Shown here: positions 1 to 6,085 of the stretch, one piece after another | Numbering within the stretch: the first letter of the stretch is position 1 | Layout: each line of letters begins with the position of its first letter | DNA from: Thermoflexus sp. | GTDB taxonomy: Bacteria; Chloroflexota; Anaerolineae; B4-G1; SLSP01 | NCBI GenBank assembly: GCA_020722365.1 | Contig: DYKY01000004.1 | Location: 1 to 42,421, forward strand | Length of the DNA: 42,421 nucleotides | Direction of reading: 5' to 3' | The notes under the pieces: model-generated | What the model saw: only the letters and a program-made list of their open reading frames with translations | What the model was told of the DNA's origin: nothing | Databases searched by the model: none | Position numbers and translations under genes: made by a program

Positions 1-859
1 GGGGGTTACCCCCGGAGCGCGACTGGACCACCACGATCAAGTCAGGTTCGCTATTGTCATACCGGCGAGCAAAACCGGCGGCCTCCATTGCGTCAGCGTC
101 GGCCTCCGGGTCGTAGACGGTGTACATGAACCGGGTGTTGGCTGGATGCGCATTGCCCGCCTCGATCAAGGCCTTGGTTGCCCGAATCATCCACCAGGCT
201 TCGGGAGACTTGTAGGGCGCGTAGGCGGCCTCGTAGGTGGTCGGTGCGCTGTTGAAGCGCCGCCGGTACTCGGCCTGCCCGCGTTCGGTGAGGGTGTAGC
301 TGGTGTCGCCGACGTACCCGGTGAGATACCGTGGCACGGGGATCTGTTCCGCGCGCAGCAGGCCCTTGTCCAGCAACTCGGCCAGGACGTGTTTCGCGCT
401 GCCAACTGCCTTGCCGGTGTGTTGCGCCCACAGTGCGCGGGCTTCGTTGGCCACCACCGTCATCCCTAGCACATACAAGAGCTTGACCGCGTCGCCGGAA
501 AGGTCTACGCCCTGTTCCGCGAGAACCGGGCCTGTGGGGGATGTCGAAGCGACTTCTTCCTCGGTCTGCGCATTTTTGACGCGGAATATTTCCTTTGGGT
601 CGCTGTCGTACAGGTGGTGCGCGTACAGGTACTCCCCCGCTTCGGTGATACTCATCTGCGCCCCTATCGCCCGGGCGAACAGGTCAGGAAACAGCACCAG
701 GAGGTACTGTTGCAGGATAGCTTCGGCGCGGTGGCGCGCGCGCACGCTCGCCGCACTGTGCATTTGACTGCTCAAGTAGCGGCCTTGCAGCACGCTCATT
801 TCCATTGCGTGTTTGGCTTGCAGTTTCTCGATATCGAGCTGCGCTGTGGTGTTACTCAC
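1..859 (-). CDS. Winged-helix DNA-binding protein, replication-relaxation-like (3' end beyond window)
   Basis: An open frame runs on the minus strand from a GTG at 859 off the left edge, giving 286 visible residues with no stop. Residues 8-70 are predicted helical. Residues about 122-200 look like a winged helix: a helix with LLYVLG, a recognition-like stretch with KHVLAELLDKGLL, then a wing ending in SYTLTERG. This order resembles the replication-relaxation / MarR-like proteins of plasmids and integrative elements. A later EPDLIVVV segment (271-278) could be a beta strand of a nuclease-like fold, which is speculative. The GTG overlaps the stop of the upstream gene by 8 bases (GTGAGTAA), suggesting translational coupling. 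The family call is a weak inference; that it is a coding frame is well supported by continuous protein-like composition. Confidence 0.6.
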   Translation of the reverse strand, partial: MSNTTAQLDIEKLQAKHAMEMSVLQGRYLSSQMHSAASVRARHRAEAILQQYLLVLFPDLFARAIGAQMSITEAGEYLYAHHLYDSDPKEIFRVKNAQTEEEVASTSPTGPVLAEQGVDLSGDAVKLLYVLGMTVVANEARALWAQHTGKAVGSAKHVLAELLDKGLLRAEQIPVPRYLTGYVGDTSYTLTERGQAEYRRRFNSAPTTYEAAYAPYKSPEAWWMIRATKALIEAGNAHPANTRFMYTVYDPEADADAMEAAGFARRYDNSEPDLIVVVQSRSGGNP

Positions 860-1376
860 GCCACACCTCCCGGCACGCCGGATACGTGAGGCCGGCGATG
901 CCCGCCCGCAGGTCGCCCAGCGCCAACCGGACTAACGCCAGGGACGCCTGCGCTTCCACCAAAGCCTGACCGTCGTTGTTGCCGTAGAAGGCCAACAACT
1001 GCTCAGCGGCGTAGGCGTAGGTGTCTATCGTTTGCTGCATTGTCAAGGCCAGCAAGCTGTATTCCGCCGGCGCTTCGGGCAGCGTCAAGGTGTTCAGCCT
1101 GGCATCCGCCTGGCCGACCTGTTCCGCCAACCGGAACGCCGCGCCGGTAGACTGCGGTTGTGGCCCACGTGCAATGACGTCCAGGCCGTTGCCGATTTCC
1201 TCCACGGTATCCGCCCAGTGCGTGACCGCCGTGAGAAAGCGCTGTTGTCGTAGCCGGTACAGCGACAGTACCACCGGCGCGCCAAAGCTGTCACACGGCG
1301 CGGCCGCATAGCCCACGCCGAGCGGTAACCCTATCACGGCCAGGGTCAGGCCGATGATGATGAAGTGTTTGTGCAT
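852..1376 (-). CDS. Hypothetical secreted protein, 174 aa
   Basis: I do not recognise the family. The ATG at 1376 is preceded by AAGGAG with 9 bases of spacing; the longer frame starting at a TTG would place that site inside the gene. The N-terminus has two His/Lys-rich residues pairs and then a hydrophobic stretch IIIGLTLAVIGLPLGVG ending in AAA, a typical Sec signal peptide. The mature part is alanine- and leucine-rich and mostly helical, with one cysteine near the mature N-terminus and another near the C-terminus. It is followed with an 8-base overlap by the winged-helix gene and preceded by the 140-aa gene in the same direction, so it is likely in one operon. It is presumably a periplasmic or cell-surface helical protein. 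Confidence 0.6.
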   Translation of the reverse strand: MHKHFIIIGLTLAVIGLPLGVGYAAAPCDSFGAPVVLSLYRLRQQRFLTAVTHWADTVEEIGNGLDVIARGPQPQSTGAAFRLAEQVGQADARLNTLTLPEAPAEYSLLALTMQQTIDTYAYAAEQLLAFYGNNDGQALVEAQASLALVRLALGDLRAGIAGLTYPACREVWRE

Positions 1377-1518
1377 CTTGTTTATCTCCTTCAAATTGAT
1401 GTTGTTTGTCGTTAGCTTTCTTGATTCTGCTATGTACTACAGGTACAATGTGCTGCGTTCGTCCGCTGCTTTGGCGGCGCTCGTATGGTTTTCTTTTTTC
1501 TGGCCACGATGTTCATCC

Positions 1519-1941
1519 TTAAAGCTCCGGCGCGACTTGCACCGTATGCACGGCGATGCCGCGCGGCGCACACTCCCCCTGGATGACGACCCGGCGCTGC
1601 ACCAGGGCACGCAACGCCTTCTCCACCCTGGGGGAAGCCGCGATAAGCGGCACCGCGCCCACGCCGTCCAAGGCTAGCCACAATGTCTTGGTCCGGGGCG
1701 GCGCGCTGACGATGCCGCGTAACAGCAACAAATCGCTCTCGGCGCACAGGTGGACCACACCCTGGGCATCTACTTCGGGCAACGTCCCTTGCCAGGGTGC
1801 CACCGTGACCAGGCGCACGTCGCCGATGCGCTGGCTATGCACACGCAACTTGTGTTTCCCTTCGGGCAGCCGCACCTTGCGCGGGTCTGCCCCGGCGAGC
1901 GCCATCAGGTGGCGCACGACGGTGTTGAGTTCGTAAGACAT
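1519..1941 (-). CDS. Hypothetical protein, 140 aa
   Basis: The ATG at 1941 is chosen because CCTGGAGGT lies 6 bases before it; the same frame is open much further upstream but that part (1942-2280) is not protein-like. The product begins MSYELNTVVRHLMALAG and then has alternating basic and hydrophobic stretches (KHKLRVHSQRIGDVRLVTVAP, in pieces) that suggest a small mixed alpha/beta fold. There is no signal peptide or membrane segment and no motif I know. It is in line with the other minus-strand genes of the cluster, 142 bases upstream of the secreted protein. An alternative start is ATG 2280, which has AGGAG before it and would give 253 aa. Confidence 0.55.
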   Translation of the reverse strand: MSYELNTVVRHLMALAGADPRKVRLPEGKHKLRVHSQRIGDVRLVTVAPWQGTLPEVDAQGVVHLCAESDLLLLRGIVSAPPRTKTLWLALDGVGAVPLIAASPRVEKALRALVQRRVVIQGECAPRGIAVHTVQVAPEL

Positions 1942-2297
1942 TGGTTTACCTCCAGGAAAAACAGGGCTGTACAGGGTAAAAAAACGGCTCCGGTATGACG
2001 AAAAAACGGACAGTTTGGCGTTTCCGCCATACCGTAACGGTGTAAACAGCGAATTTGCGACGACGGTAGCTCCCGGAACACCCCCAAGTGCTGTACCAGG
2101 GCCAAAACAGGGTAGATGCGGGGTAAAACCCCCCGCAAAACCCTGTCTGACGTCGCCAAAACCAGGATTGAGCAACGATTTCGACCTTGACGGTATGAGG
2201 GGAAAACGACACTTTTTTTCCCTACCATGTCTTTTTCCTTCATACCGGAAACGGCGTGTTGATGGGAACTGTTGTTGCATCGCCTTCTCCTGCGTGT
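1942..2297. other. Intergenic region rich in inverted repeats
   Basis: This stretch has no convincing gene. It contains CGGTATG at 1991-1997 with CATACCG at 2028-2034, and CGGTATGA at 2191-2198 with TCATACCG at 2240-2247. Inside the second pair lie AGGGGAAAA and TTTTTTCCCT, which can also pair. Between the two pairs is a compound hairpin (2107-2146). The signal AACAGGG recurs near 1957, 1969 and 2105. Such a layout can be an origin, a transfer origin, a set of operators or a small mobile remnant; the sequence alone does not decide. Confidence 0.5.
2107..2146. repeat. Compound inverted repeat (hairpin)
   Basis: ACAGGGT (2107-2113) pairs with ACCCTGT (2140-2146), and inside it GCGGGG (2118-2123) pairs with CCCCGC (2131-2136) around a TAAAA-type loop. 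Total pairing is 13 bp with a 4-nt/3-nt internal loop. It is not followed by a T-run on either strand, so it is not an ordinary intrinsic terminator. Confidence 0.6.
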
Positions 2298-2876
2298 CTA
2301 TGCTTGGGTCAGGAACGTCCATTGGGCTTGCGCCTGCTTTCTCAAGGCGCGTTCGGGCAGCTCCGGTGTGGGCTGTGCGTGAATGACCACCGTCTCCATT
2401 CCCCAACCGCGTACCACCGCAGCGACCAAGGGCAGCGCCTCGGCGTGGAATGTGCTGATGCAGCCCTGGCGGTCGTAGAGGGGCGCGTAGGGATAACCCT
2501 TGAACTCCGCGCTGCCGCCGGGCCGCAGATCGAACACGGCCAGGCGGCCTCGATTCCGGCGACTCTTGAGCAGCCGGGACGCGGTGCAGAATTCCGTGCT
2601 GGCCTCCTCGTCTGGCGGCCCCACCAGACTCCGCAGCAAGTCCAGGAGGTTCCATACCCCGTCGGGCAGCAGACACGTCAGCACGAGCTGCGCCACCGGG
2701 CCGAACGTCAGGCTCAGCAGGGCTTCGGGATTTTTGTTCCCGGCCGCCAACGCTTCGAGGGCGGGGAGCACACACTGGAAGGCCAACTCGAAGTAGGCGT
2801 CATTGATGCGCCATTCCAGGGGCAAGTGCGCCGTCAGTTCAGCGGTCGTCAATTCGCGCGCTTCACTCATATACAT
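2298..2876 (-). CDS. Hypothetical protein, 192 aa
   Basis: I do not recognise this family. The start is the ATG at 2876, with AAGGAG 11 bases upstream; a second in-frame ATG two codons later is less well placed. The product has no signal peptide. Residues about 25-90 are hydrophobic helices (ALEALAAG, VAQLVLTCLLPDGVWNLLDLL), followed by a basic patch with KSRRNRGRL and a C-terminal alpha/beta part ending in a helix with RALRKQAQAQ. It starts 15 bases after the stop of the upstream exported protein, so the two are almost certainly co-transcribed. It is most likely a cytoplasmic partner of the same system. Confidence 0.6.
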   Translation of the reverse strand: MYMSEARELTTAELTAHLPLEWRINDAYFELAFQCVLPALEALAAGNKNPEALLSLTFGPVAQLVLTCLLPDGVWNLLDLLRSLVGPPDEEASTEFCTASRLLKSRRNRGRLAVFDLRPGGSAEFKGYPYAPLYDRQGCISTFHAEALPLVAAVVRGWGMETVVIHAQPTPELPERALRKQAQAQWTFLTQA

Positions 2877-2891
2877 TGGCCACTCATCTCC

Positions 2892-3509
2892 TTACCACCC
2901 CGGCCCCGTTGGGCCAGGACTGCTGAAGGTGGGCATTGGCTGTGGCGTGGGGCATATCCCCGGCCAGACCACGGCCAGGTAGGGTTCTTCGCCGCGCCAG
3001 ACGACGGCGACACCCACATCGGTGGCGCTGTCCAGGCCGGGATACTTCGCAGTCGCCAGTGAGTCGCGTCGTGGGCTATTCACGAGGTAGCAGTCCGTGT
3101 TCTCCGGGCAGGGGTTACAGCCGGGCCAGTAGAACAGCCACGCTCCGGTAGCTGGCCCTACAGCGTACCGCAGGCCGTACCAGCGTGGCCAGGTCTGTGC
3201 AGAACGTAGCTTGGGCGCTTCCCCGGCCAGGTAGTAGGCCCAGTCTTCCAGATCGGGATCGGGCGCGGCTTGGAGACCGTGCTGTTCCCGTAACCAGTCA
3301 ATGAAGGTCGCGCGGGTGATGGCCTCGTCGCCTTCTGTATCGACGTCGATGGGCATTGCGACTGGCGTGGGAGTTGGCGTTGCCAGCCACATCCGGACTT
3401 CTTCACGGGCAACGTAGAATAGCGGAACCAGGCAACAATGATAGAGCGCCAGCAAGCCGAATGCCGATAGCCAGGCTAATGGTTGGGAGAGAGGCTTACG
3501 CGGTTTCAT
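2892..3509 (-). CDS. Hypothetical membrane-anchored exported protein, 205 aa
   Basis: The ATG at 3509 opens a protein with a basic N-terminus (MKPRKP), one hydrophobic segment at residues about 10-33 containing two adjacent cysteines, and then a TPTPTP linker. This is the layout of a signal-anchored surface protein. The exposed domain has a WAYYLAG motif and a small cysteine cluster CNPCPENTDC that could form disulfides or bind a metal. The C-terminus is rich in proline and glycine. The family is unknown to me. Its spacing to its neighbours (34 bases before, 15 after) indicates an operon with the small gene at 3544-3702 and the 192-aa gene. Confidence 0.6.
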   Translation of the reverse strand: MKPRKPLSQPLAWLSAFGLLALYHCCLVPLFYVAREEVRMWLATPTPTPVAMPIDVDTEGDEAITRATFIDWLREQHGLQAAPDPDLEDWAYYLAGEAPKLRSAQTWPRWYGLRYAVGPATGAWLFYWPGCNPCPENTDCYLVNSPRRDSLATAKYPGLDSATDVGVAVVWRGEEPYLAVVWPGICPTPQPMPTFSSPGPTGPGW

Positions 3510-3543
3510 TCGTAGATCTACTCTCCCGTTTTGGTGGCTTTCT

Positions 3544-3702
3544 CTACTTGCGTATCAGCAATACCTGAAGGTGTTGATGTAGCATATATGGACTGTTCCT
3601 GATTTGCCTGTCGTGTAGACGTTCGCGACGCTTACGCAGCAGGAAGATGTAAACTTTCTCTAATGCTTTGTCGGCTTCTGGCGTCAGTTCTCTATCTGTC
3701 AT
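3544..3702 (-). CDS. Small basic helical protein, 52 aa
   Basis: This short frame begins at ATG 3702, with GAGGT 8 bases upstream, and ends at TAG 3546-3544. The product starts MTDRELTPEADKALEKV and contains FLLRKRRERL, so it is predicted to be an amphipathic, strongly basic helix. It is 34 bases upstream of the exported 205-aa gene on the same strand and would be the first gene of the cluster. Its size and lack of a known motif leave doubt; the ribosome binding site, position and helical composition favour a real gene. Confidence 0.45.
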   Translation of the reverse strand: MTDRELTPEADKALEKVYIFLLRKRRERLHDRQIRNSPYMLHQHLQVLLIRK

Positions 3703-4037
3703 TTTTCTGTACCTCGCAATGATTAAGATTTTGTCTTTGTGCTAATGGGTCCGCACCAACAGTCTCTATGTTAAGCGAGGTCGTATCAAATGATTGTTGG
3801 AAACCTTAGTAATTTTTCCTCACTCTGGCGAGAATTTTTCCTGTCGTGTTTCGTGTTCGAAAAACCCGCTCTTTGAGCATTTCATCCAACCATACAACAG
3901 TGAGTAGCTATTCTGTTAGAGTTCTTTGGTGTTGTTTGATTCGTATTTCGGAATAAAATGTGAGTGCGCTGTAAAAGGAATTCTGGTTGGTATCTACGAG
4001 CTAGTCCATATCCGCAATGAGGTAGTGGAGAGGAACT
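3703..4037. other. AT-rich divergent intergenic region
   Basis: No gene is seen in this 335-bp stretch between the leftward cluster and the rightward YdjM-type gene. It is visibly richer in A and T than the surroundings. AATTTTTCCT occurs twice near 3813 and 3834. ACCTCGC (3711-3717) is inverted as GCGAGGT (3775-3781). The promoter of the rightward gene is annotated separately; a clear promoter for the leftward genes could not be picked. Confidence 0.5.
3932..3959 (+). promoter_or_regulatory. Candidate sigma70 promoter of the YdjM-type gene
   Basis: TTGTTT (3932-3937) and TAAAAT (3954-3959) are separated by 16 bases. They stand 78 bases upstream of the ATG at 4038, in the AT-rich spacer. Confidence 0.45.
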
Positions 4038-5072
4038 ATGAAAGGTATTTCTCATTTCATCACAGGTGTAGCGATTGCCACTTTCTTTCCTGAGGTGGTG
4101 CGGCAGGCTGAATTAGGGGGACTGCTGCCAATGTTAGGAGGGATCGGGGGCATCTTACCTGATACGATAGACTTCAAGATTGCCAGATATTGGGAAAGAT
4201 TTGATCTCTCTATCGATCCCGGCCTGGAACCCGATGCAGAAAAGATCGCCGATGCTCTCGTCGCGGCAATGCGCCAGGCTTACGAGACCGGCAAGGATGT
4301 CAACCTCGTCGCCCATACGATCCGTGTAGGGGCCGATCTCTGGCGCGAGTATGCCATCCGCTTTATCCCCGACAGCGACGAAATCGCCGTACGCATCGGG
4401 CCGTTGGTCAACACCGGACAGGTCCCCCTTGCCGGAAGTGAGCCAGAAGATGCAGTGGAAGTCCGTCGCAAGGTCGGTGTGCCCGTGCGGAATACCTATA
4501 GTGAAGAGTACAAGGTCAACATCTTCTCCGGCCCGACGTTCCGCTTTGCGCGGGAGAACGACCAAGTACGTGTGCATTTTCTGGATTGGCATCATCGCTG
4601 GACACACAGCTTGATCCTGGCGATAGGTGTGGGATTGGTGATGGGGCTGTTGGTTGGGTTATTCACCGGCAACTGGGTCACCGCCCAATGGGGTGCGTTA
4701 GTGACATGGTTGGGGTACAGCGGACATATACTTGAAGATCAAATAGGCCATATGGGGAGCAATCTCTTTTGGCCTTTGACAAAGAAGCGCATCCCTGGCC
4801 CTGGACTGATCCACGCCAGCGATGCGCTCCCCAATTTCCTGACAGTGTGGACATCTGTAGCTTTGATCCTCTATAACCTGGATCGGTTTTCTGGAAACAC
4901 GCGTCTGTTGCCCGCGAACTACCTCCTGGTCATGGTGGCTGTGCCTTGGCTTGTCCTTGGTGGCATCTATGTTCTAGGCAAAACCCGAAAAGTACATTTA
5001 CAGCCTTCCGCAGAAAGCGTACGTCAATCGGAGCAGATTGCAGAAGCGACTCCTTTTGAACCTGCTACATGA
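4038..5072 (+). CDS. Membrane-bound metal-dependent hydrolase, YdjM/DUF457-like
   Basis: The 344-aa product matches the YdjM/LexA-regulated membrane hydrolase pattern: HFITG at 6-10, PD at 41-42, WHHRWTHS at 184-191, and GHILED at 229-234. The His and Asp residues are the expected metal ligands. Membrane helices lie at about 191-212, 214-230, 268-282 and 303-327. A soluble insertion (about 55-180) makes it longer than the ~200-aa typical members. GGAGAGGA precedes the ATG. The substrate of the family is not firmly known; members are often called phospholipase-C-like or metal-dependent hydrolases. A truncated copy follows directly. Confidence 0.75.
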   Translation: MKGISHFITGVAIATFFPEVVRQAELGGLLPMLGGIGGILPDTIDFKIARYWERFDLSIDPGLEPDAEKIADALVAAMRQAYETGKDVNLVAHTIRVGADLWREYAIRFIPDSDEIAVRIGPLVNTGQVPLAGSEPEDAVEVRRKVGVPVRNTYSEEYKVNIFSGPTFRFARENDQVRVHFLDWHHRWTHSLILAIGVGLVMGLLVGLFTGNWVTAQWGALVTWLGYSGHILEDQIGHMGSNLFWPLTKKRIPGPGLIHASDALPNFLTVWTSVALILYNLDRFSGNTRLLPANYLLVMVAVPWLVLGGIYVLGKTRKVHLQPSAESVRQSEQIAEATPFEPAT

Positions 5073-5197
5073 TGAAAGAGATGTCAACGACCTGAAGGGT
5101 TAATGTTTCACCGCGAGTACTTCTGGACTCATCCGTTGGTATCTGTGCGGGATGACCAGGCGGGCAGTTAGGGTGATAGAGTTTTTGGGACGGCTCT

Positions 5198-6085
5198 GCG
5201 CGGTATTGGGAGAGGTTCGACGTCGAGATCGATCCCGGGCTTGCGCCTGACGCAGAAAAGATCGCCGATGCGCTCGTCGCGGCGATGCGCGGGGCTTACG
5301 AGAGCGGCAAGGACTGCAATGTCATTGCCCACACCATCCGCGTGGGGGCCGATCTCTGGCGCGAGTATGCCATCCGCTTCATCCCCGACAGCGACAAAAT
5401 CGCCGTGCGCATCGGGCCGTTGGTCAACACCGGGCAAGTGCCCCTTGCCGGGAGTGAGCCGGAAGGCGCAGCGGAAGTCCGTCGTAAGGTCGGCGTGCCC
5501 GTGCGGAACACCTATAGTGAAGAGTACAAGGTCAACATCTTCTCCGGGCCGACGTTCCGCTTTGCGCGGGAAGGTGACCAGGTGCGCGTGCATTTCCTGG
5601 ATTGGCACCACCGCTGGACACATAGCCTGCTCCTCGCCGTGGCGGTCGGCGCGGTGATGGGGGTGTTGGTGGGGCTGCTCACCGGCAATTGGACTACTGC
5701 ATGGTGGGGCGGGCTGGTGACGGGCTTGGGCTTCGCCGGACACGTGCTCGAAGACCAGTTGGGCCACATGGGAAGTAACCTCTTCTGGCCACTCACGCAC
5801 AAGCGCATTCCCGGCCCCGGCCTGATCCATGCCAGCGACGCGATTCCCAATTCCCTCACGGTGTGGACATCCGTGGCGCTGATCCTCTTCAACCTGGATC
5901 GGTTTTCCGGCGTGGCGCGCTTGCTGCCGTCTAGCTACTTGCTTTTGGCAGTCGGATTGCCGTGGCTGATTCTCGGCGGCGTGTACTTCCTGGGACAGTC
6001 CCGTAAGGCGCATCCCCAACCTTCCCGGGAAAGCATACGCCAGGAGGAACGTATCGCCGAAGCCAGCCCGGTCGAGATGACCTGA
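5198..6085 (+). pseudogene. 5'-truncated second copy of the YdjM-type hydrolase
   Basis: From ARYWERFD (codon at 5198) to the stop at 6083-6085 the translation aligns almost end to end with residues 49-338 of the preceding gene, including the WHHRWTHS motif and the membrane helices. The first ~48 codons are missing, with the family's N-terminal His and PD ligands. An in-frame TAG lies at 5177-5179, and the first ATG (5285) has no ribosome binding site. The copy has diverged at many third positions and is richer in G and C, so the duplication is not recent. It is either a decaying paralogue or the leftover of recombination between two copies. A short product from ATG 5285 (266 aa) cannot be excluded. 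Confidence 0.7.

Follow-up and report, generated by a model that had tools for sequence, protein, structure and literature searches.

Six leftward genes lie at the left end of a contig from Thermoflexus sp. (GCA_020722365.1), and are here named A to F, starting from the contig end (Table 1). The window, meaning the whole stretch of DNA that was analysed, comprises the first 42,421 bases of this 57,884-base contig (G000:C175). As the contig ends at window position 1, gene A is incomplete after residue 286. The cluster is probably the edge of an integrated mobile element, with gene A a candidate relaxase and the gap between D and C a candidate site for its action.

A conserved gene cluster at a contig end

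All six open reading frames listed in a preliminary description of this DNA exist. Genes A to E are syntenic in a congener (locus L002) and are under purifying selection, with dN/dS values between the two loci of 0.22 for A, 0.19 for B, 0.19 for C, 0.34 for D and 0.16 for E. DNA identity with the congener is 79-81% across E to A, and ends at the start of E; gene F, which is weakly supported and weakly conserved, has 38% identity to a small open reading frame at the same place. The two exported proteins of the preliminary description correspond to B and E, judging by hydrophobic N-termini that peak at 2.16 at residue 11 and 1.87 at residue 16, respectively. The tight spacing with coupled starts that it reported holds for F-E (34 bp), E-D (15 bp) and B-A (an 8-bp overlap), but not for D-C (356 bp) or C-B (approximately 124-142 bp), and these wide gaps therefore leave just one coupled start, that of B with A.

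Scans of all six proteins against Pfam and PHROGs returned nothing over cut-off, and no window protein passed it in a PADLOC scan of B to F plus the A proteins of two relatives. As tables from hidden Markov models (HMMs) inevitably give strong E-values to the sequences that the models were built from, the remaining rows alone count. A two-sequence HMM of D finds this gene in the window and L002 only; proteins of the relatives G007 and G011, placed as D homologues by position, were dropped because this HMM finds neither.

Table 1. Features at the left end of the window
Feature	Position	Strand	Description
Gene A	2-859	-	Truncated at residue 286 by contig end; coiled coil, then MarR-like winged helix, then start of a predicted PD-(D/E)XK-like domain
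Gene B	852-1376	-	Helical, exported or membrane-anchored; open to TTG at 1394 (open reading frame 852-1394)
Gene C	1519-1941	-	OB fold predicted for C-terminal half, SSB/PriB-like
D-C intergenic region	1942-2297	.	DNA-level conservation with L002; candidate oriT, origin or operator
Repeat copy 1 (CGGTATGA type)	1991-2008	+	
Repeat copy 2	2021-2037	-	Inverted partner of copy 1
Repeat copy 3	2191-2208	+	
Repeat copy 4	2234-2250	-	Inverted partner of copy 3
Gene D	2298-2876	-	Soluble protein; homologue in congener only
Gene E	2892-3509	-	Exported protein; homologue in congener only
Gene F	3544-3702	-	Basic, 52 aa; weak L002 homologue at same place
Junction zone	3703-3922	.	Contains element/chromosome junction; DNA shared with G001:C9 from approximately 3922 rightward into rpoB/ribosomal genes

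Gene A and the MOBC relaxases

Relatives of the window's A were found in 5 of 99 related genomes, its own included. A profile of the family matched 10 of the 396 genomes in a class sample; in a phylum sample of 400, a broader profile matched 13, several of them marginal. The congener's A is complete at 461 residues, and its AlphaFold model, derived from an eight-sequence alignment (predicted local distance difference test, pLDDT, 79.9; predicted template-modelling score, pTM, 0.63), comprises a long N-terminal helix, a winged helix at approximately residues 125-210, and a beta-beta-beta-alpha-beta core at 251-333. On this model, A is predicted to combine a winged helix with a PD-(D/E)XK-type domain, with the window's A covering the part up to residue 286. 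Among solved structures, Foldseek ranks chains of the type IIS restriction enzyme PaqCI first (E 2.6e-4 to 1.5e-3). The VIA matches are MarR-type winged helices, and because these fill the results, they are uninformative on the nuclease domain. The acidic residues Asp/Glu/Glu are kept in all four full-length members of the window clade, and in most distant ones. A continuation of the window's A was sought in its own genome with the congener's full protein, and not found; a tblastn search of the congener's A against plasmids and phages gave no match, and no viral contigs with the window's A were found.

The relationship of A to relaxases emerges from profile-profile comparison. The Replic_Relax family (PF13814) is over cut-off in 47 of the 396 class-sample genomes, and the places encoding A lie outside those matches. 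A reference set of 12 PF13814 proteins was picked from the 20 loci returned, where the whole open reading frame was readable. Against these class-mates, the distant A set scored 92.7% and the window clade 70.4%. As controls, winged-helix replication proteins scored 0.9% against the PF13814 set and 0.8% against A, and a set of single-stranded DNA-binding proteins (SSBs) 0.1% against A. Hence the replication-relaxation-like protein of the preliminary description is corroborated, as a relative of Replic_Relax/MobC. The spacing from Asp to Glu is 19 residues in both families (PD280/E299-x-E301 in A, PD197/E216-x-D218 in the PF13814 set). Single members of the A family have sub-cut-off matches to PF13814 (L012, 0.0013; L060, 0.0034) and to NF041423 MobC_subf (4.9e-4), and the window's A has no match to PF13814.

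PMC5357655 lists Rel_PF13814 as a MobC relaxase superfamily, and PMC12857230 relates MOBC relaxases to PD-(D/E)XK enzymes. According to the latter, TraX of pAD1, a MOBC protein, has an N-terminal winged helix and an active site of restriction type; the five direct repeats that it binds in the origin of transfer (oriT) lie away from nic. Like the MOBC relaxases (TraX of pAD1 and MobC of CloDF13; PF13814, NF041423), A is predicted to have a winged helix and then a PD-(D/E)XK-type domain, and its family shares with them the Asp-19-Glu-x-acidic spacing (in most members), carriage on mobile elements, and repeats near the locus. However, the A family differs in its sub-threshold sequence similarity, its N-terminal coiled coil, its regular exported partner B, and VirD4 being undetected in 12 of 13 genomes. 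We regard A as a candidate for a divergent MOBC/Replic_Relax-like relaxase, distantly related to those described.

Partner genes, repeats and neighbourhoods in relatives

The start of B is better placed at the in-frame ATG at 1376 than at the TTG at 1394, as the former aligns better with a relative. In 10 of 14 A loci across Chloroflexota (all except L003, L038, L039 and L062), the gene directly before A is B, overlapping it by 4 to 25 bp in most paired loci, with tentative A starts in L014 and L061. Outside these 14 loci, a B-like frame precedes an A-like frame in L057. In profile-profile comparison, the window-clade B set agrees with that of other families and classes at 98.3% over 157 columns. 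The regularity of this pairing suggests that B works with A.

The model of C has an overall pLDDT of 68.7, with block means of 73-90 from residue 71 on, and consists of strands and one helix in OB order. In VIA-align comparisons with solved structures, SSB domains take the top places (3koj_B, Z 8.7, rmsd 2.5 over 66 residues; 6rup_B, Z 8.3, rmsd 2.1 over 66 residues), with PriB, and also unrelated OB proteins such as SilF, in lower rows; with Foldseek alone, nothing matched at E<=0.001. On this model, C is predicted to be an OB-fold protein of the SSB/PriB-like kind. Identification of C as an SSB by sequence failed, with 0.5% in the SSB profile test. A homologue of C is found in G011 (6e-7), and the C of G007 is tied in via G011 only. 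SSB genes (PF00436) stand before B in G011, G239, G419 and G415, and between C and B in G007. C resembles the SSB/PriB proteins in its predicted fold, its top structural match, and the place before B that SSB genes occupy in other lineages, but differs in having a separate SSB beside it in G007 and G011.

The D-C gap is about as conserved between the window and L002 as the genes are, and in both it contains four CGGTATGA-type repeats in the order + - + -, forming two inverted pairs. The 13-base core of the repeat, allowing up to one mismatch, occurs four times in the window and four times in L002, always inside this gap, and the ten other loci scanned yielded one match in total. In single-strand folding, the gap outperforms every one of 100 shuffles (z -3.0 as DNA and -2.8 as RNA; -3.8 as DNA in L002). 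Upstream of C, G007 has other inverted repeats and G011 has three tandem 39-mers. The exact inverted-repeat pattern was searched for in viral contigs, without a match. We read the gap as a candidate oriT, replication origin or operator. Two direct copies of AATTTTTCC, noticed by eye, lie upstream of F (window 3811-3841); L002 has similar paired repeats at F, possibly an operator in common.

The preliminary description considered the mix of genes typical of integrated or conjugative elements, and this is upheld by the relatives of A, which adjoin SSB genes, replication initiators, ParA/ParB-like genes, tyrosine integrases, HerA/FtsK-like ATPases and Tad genes. One 46-kb contig of G007 encodes an FtsK/EccC-like ATPase, a DnaA_N-type initiator, C, SSB, B and A, as well as a serine-rich HerA-like ATPase of 1.4 thousand amino acids (kaa), CpaE/CpaB, CpaF, TadB-type and TadE proteins, and a phage-type integrase. 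In G239, SSB, B, A, three envelope proteins and the serine-rich ATPase are followed by Tad genes (CpaB, CpaE, CpaF, TadB, TadC, prepilin peptidase and TadE). In G172 and G267, envelope proteins, the serine-rich ATPase, CpaE, CpaF, TadB, TadC and TadE precede B and A, after which come an OB-like protein and a tyrosine integrase. In total, Tad genes stand beside B-A in 4 of the 14 A loci, all with the serine-rich HerA-like ATPase and three with a tyrosine integrase; profile matches in these relatives include T2SSE (1e-28, 5.1e-25, 1e-35), T2SSF (2.6e-11) and TadE (4.2e-10, 4e-8). The other ten have no Tad genes in the available DNA, most being on short contigs or stretches; the whole 58.9-kb contig of G001 has none, with its serine-rich ATPase 38 kb away, and the window has none either. 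Integrases lie within or adjoining L039, L063, L064 and L100 (relatives G042, G172, G267 and G007), and in G419 B-A is accompanied by SSB, rep and ParA.

Among the conjugation genes that the preliminary description named (relaxase, VirB4, TraD-like), a MOBC-like relaxase candidate was found in A itself, whereas VirD4 was not detected in G000, and VirB4 is represented by sub-cut-off scraps only. VirB4 (TIGR00929) was over cut-off in none of 13 partly incomplete genomes, and among 14 control genomes a single one passed; G415, G267 and G419 have sub-cut-off relatives (E<1e-14) on other contigs. VirD4 (PF02534) was present in one of the 13 genomes, also on another contig. Of the VirB4/VirD4-type ATPases expected of integrative and conjugative elements (ICEs), the 13 genomes yielded a single VirD4. 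Firmicute and actinobacterial ICEs with FtsK-like coupling proteins (TcpA, TraB) are similar to G007 in its FtsK/EccC-like ATPase, integrase and relaxase-like gene, but no VirB4 over cut-off was found, and a Tad locus stands in its place. The CpaB, CpaE, CpaF, TadB, TadC, prepilin-peptidase and TadE-like genes beside B-A are those of Tad (type IVc) pilus loci. What sets these clusters apart is the added presence of a relaxase-like gene and of a serine-rich HerA-like ATPase of 1.1-1.4 kaa (NF033849-like), joined in three of four by an integrase. The Tad pilus machine has no usual link to DNA transfer, and no Tad-linked relaxase elements were recognisable by title or abstract in the literature searches made.

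Interpretation, alternatives and the state of this copy

The reading we favour, with some confidence rather than with assurance, is that the cluster forms the edge of an integrated mobile element beside the rpoB/ribosomal-protein region, and that its operon readies the DNA of the element to be replicated and transferred. The winged helix of A would bind the D-C repeat array or a nearby site, and its PD-(D/E)XK-type domain would nick one strand, as in MOBC relaxases. C, through its OB fold, would coat or open the single strand, and B, located at the membrane or beyond it, may serve in docking the A-DNA complex to an export machine. We infer the nicking, oriT, docking and transfer, as well as the completeness or activity of the window's copy; the operon is seen without its end in the window, and the putative transfer machine is that of the relatives. 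It is also conceivable, albeit unlikely, that integrative elements of Chloroflexota use a relaxosome (MOBC-like A, exported B, an SSB/OB protein and a repeat-bearing oriT) to pass DNA to a pilus machine of the Tad type, equipped with a serine-rich HerA-like ATPase. This would replace the VirB/VirD4 type IV secretion system, and constitute conjugation via a type IVc pilus apparatus, with the window holding a cut or decaying copy of such an element. Knowledge of DNA exchange in Chloroflexota is sparse. Should A be a relaxase, surveys that rely on curated cut-offs overlook these elements, and the regularly paired B adds a new component; should the Tad machine carry DNA, bacterial conjugation would exist beyond the type IV secretion family.

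Several observations weigh against the proposed transfer operon. None of the A proteins tested passed a curated relaxase cut-off; Foldseek TM-scores for A are low (0.16-0.20), with E<=0.001 for three chains only; and the window's A ends before E299/E301. The A proteins of L063 and L064, both Tad-linked, lack the PD motif and thereby the catalytic Asp, hence the nuclease is not universal in the A family. C combines a middling model with no SSB profile match, and the CGGTATGA-type repeats have no sequence relative beyond the two congeners, with those of other lineages differing at this place. No integrase was seen in the window's copy, the whole of G000 not having been searched for integrase or Tad genes, and the sole match to the serine-rich ATPase in G000 is a broken remnant on contig C127, 82-85% identical to that of G001.

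An alternative is that A serves the element as a DNA-binding replication or regulatory protein, with an inactive nuclease-like domain, repeats that act as a replication origin or operator, and no conjugation. The relatives of A are surrounded by replication initiators (DnaA_N-type), ParA and a ParB-like frame, a DnaB-like helicase lies beside the congener's A, the repeats upstream of C in L015 are iteron-like, and L063 and L064 lack the PD motif. Yet the Asp/Glu/Glu spacing is retained in the four full-length members of the window clade and in most distant members, and A is related to a family recognised as MobC relaxases, making this alternative somewhat unlikely, though the most serious of those considered. 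A further alternative makes B and A accessories to a Tad pilus locus of the ordinary adhesive kind, itself riding on mobile elements, and draws on their position directly after TadE, in the same orientation, in G172 and G267. We consider this improbable, as Tad genes are absent from the whole G001 contig that carries B-A, and in G419 the pair is accompanied by SSB, rep and ParA; A carries a winged helix and a nuclease-type domain, and is no pilus part. Finally, the best solved-structure match of A to a restriction enzyme could indicate an anti-phage defence island with A as its restriction-type effector. In PADLOC, the winged helix of one relative weakly matches CARF/Csa3 regulators and the serine-rich ATPase HerA models, and near the congener's A-DnaB-rep genes is what we take to be a CRISPR-like array, visible as a pattern that recurs in the translated frames and split by a presumed IS21-type istA/istB pair (L002:14068-18889). 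However, none of B to F in the window matches PADLOC, and the neighbours are replication, partition, integrase and pilus genes, such that a defence island is very improbable.

Returning to the mobile element as the favoured reading, its boundary can be narrowed in this copy. DNA in common with G001:C9 starts at approximately window position 3922 and F starts at 3702, hence the change from element to chromosome lies between these positions. The right flank contains what are presumably rpoB-type, translation-factor and ribosomal-protein genes. G001 and G003 carry different genes left of the shared flank, meaning this spot is variable; attachment sites were not found, and with these genes differing no empty site was matched. 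The element may be dead, given that neither an integrase nor an attachment site was seen in this copy and that the serine-rich ATPase is represented in G000 by the broken remnant alone. The congener's DnaB has a 49% identical DnaB-like counterpart in G000, probably a chromosomal gene, and its rep-like protein has no match there.

Other observations concern the surroundings of these loci. At window 4038-6085 are two tandem membrane genes resembling metal-dependent hydrolases, for which G001 and G003 have a single copy at this place. On contig C58, G000 encodes a further PF13814 protein with a better match (26.1 bits; L097 121-3760), adjoined by what we take to be an AbiEi/AbiEii-like pair. In L063 (7771-8649) and L064 (10404-11195), what is presumably a Rad52/single-strand-annealing-like protein and a second OB-like protein come right after A, the L064 copy being without a Pfam match. 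A presumed reverse-transcriptase gene, short protein and formylglycine-enzyme-like fragment at L010:7547-9303 resemble a diversity-generating retroelement, and a BrxC-like (BREX/DUF6079) gene directly adjoins the G239 element (L059:155-5355).

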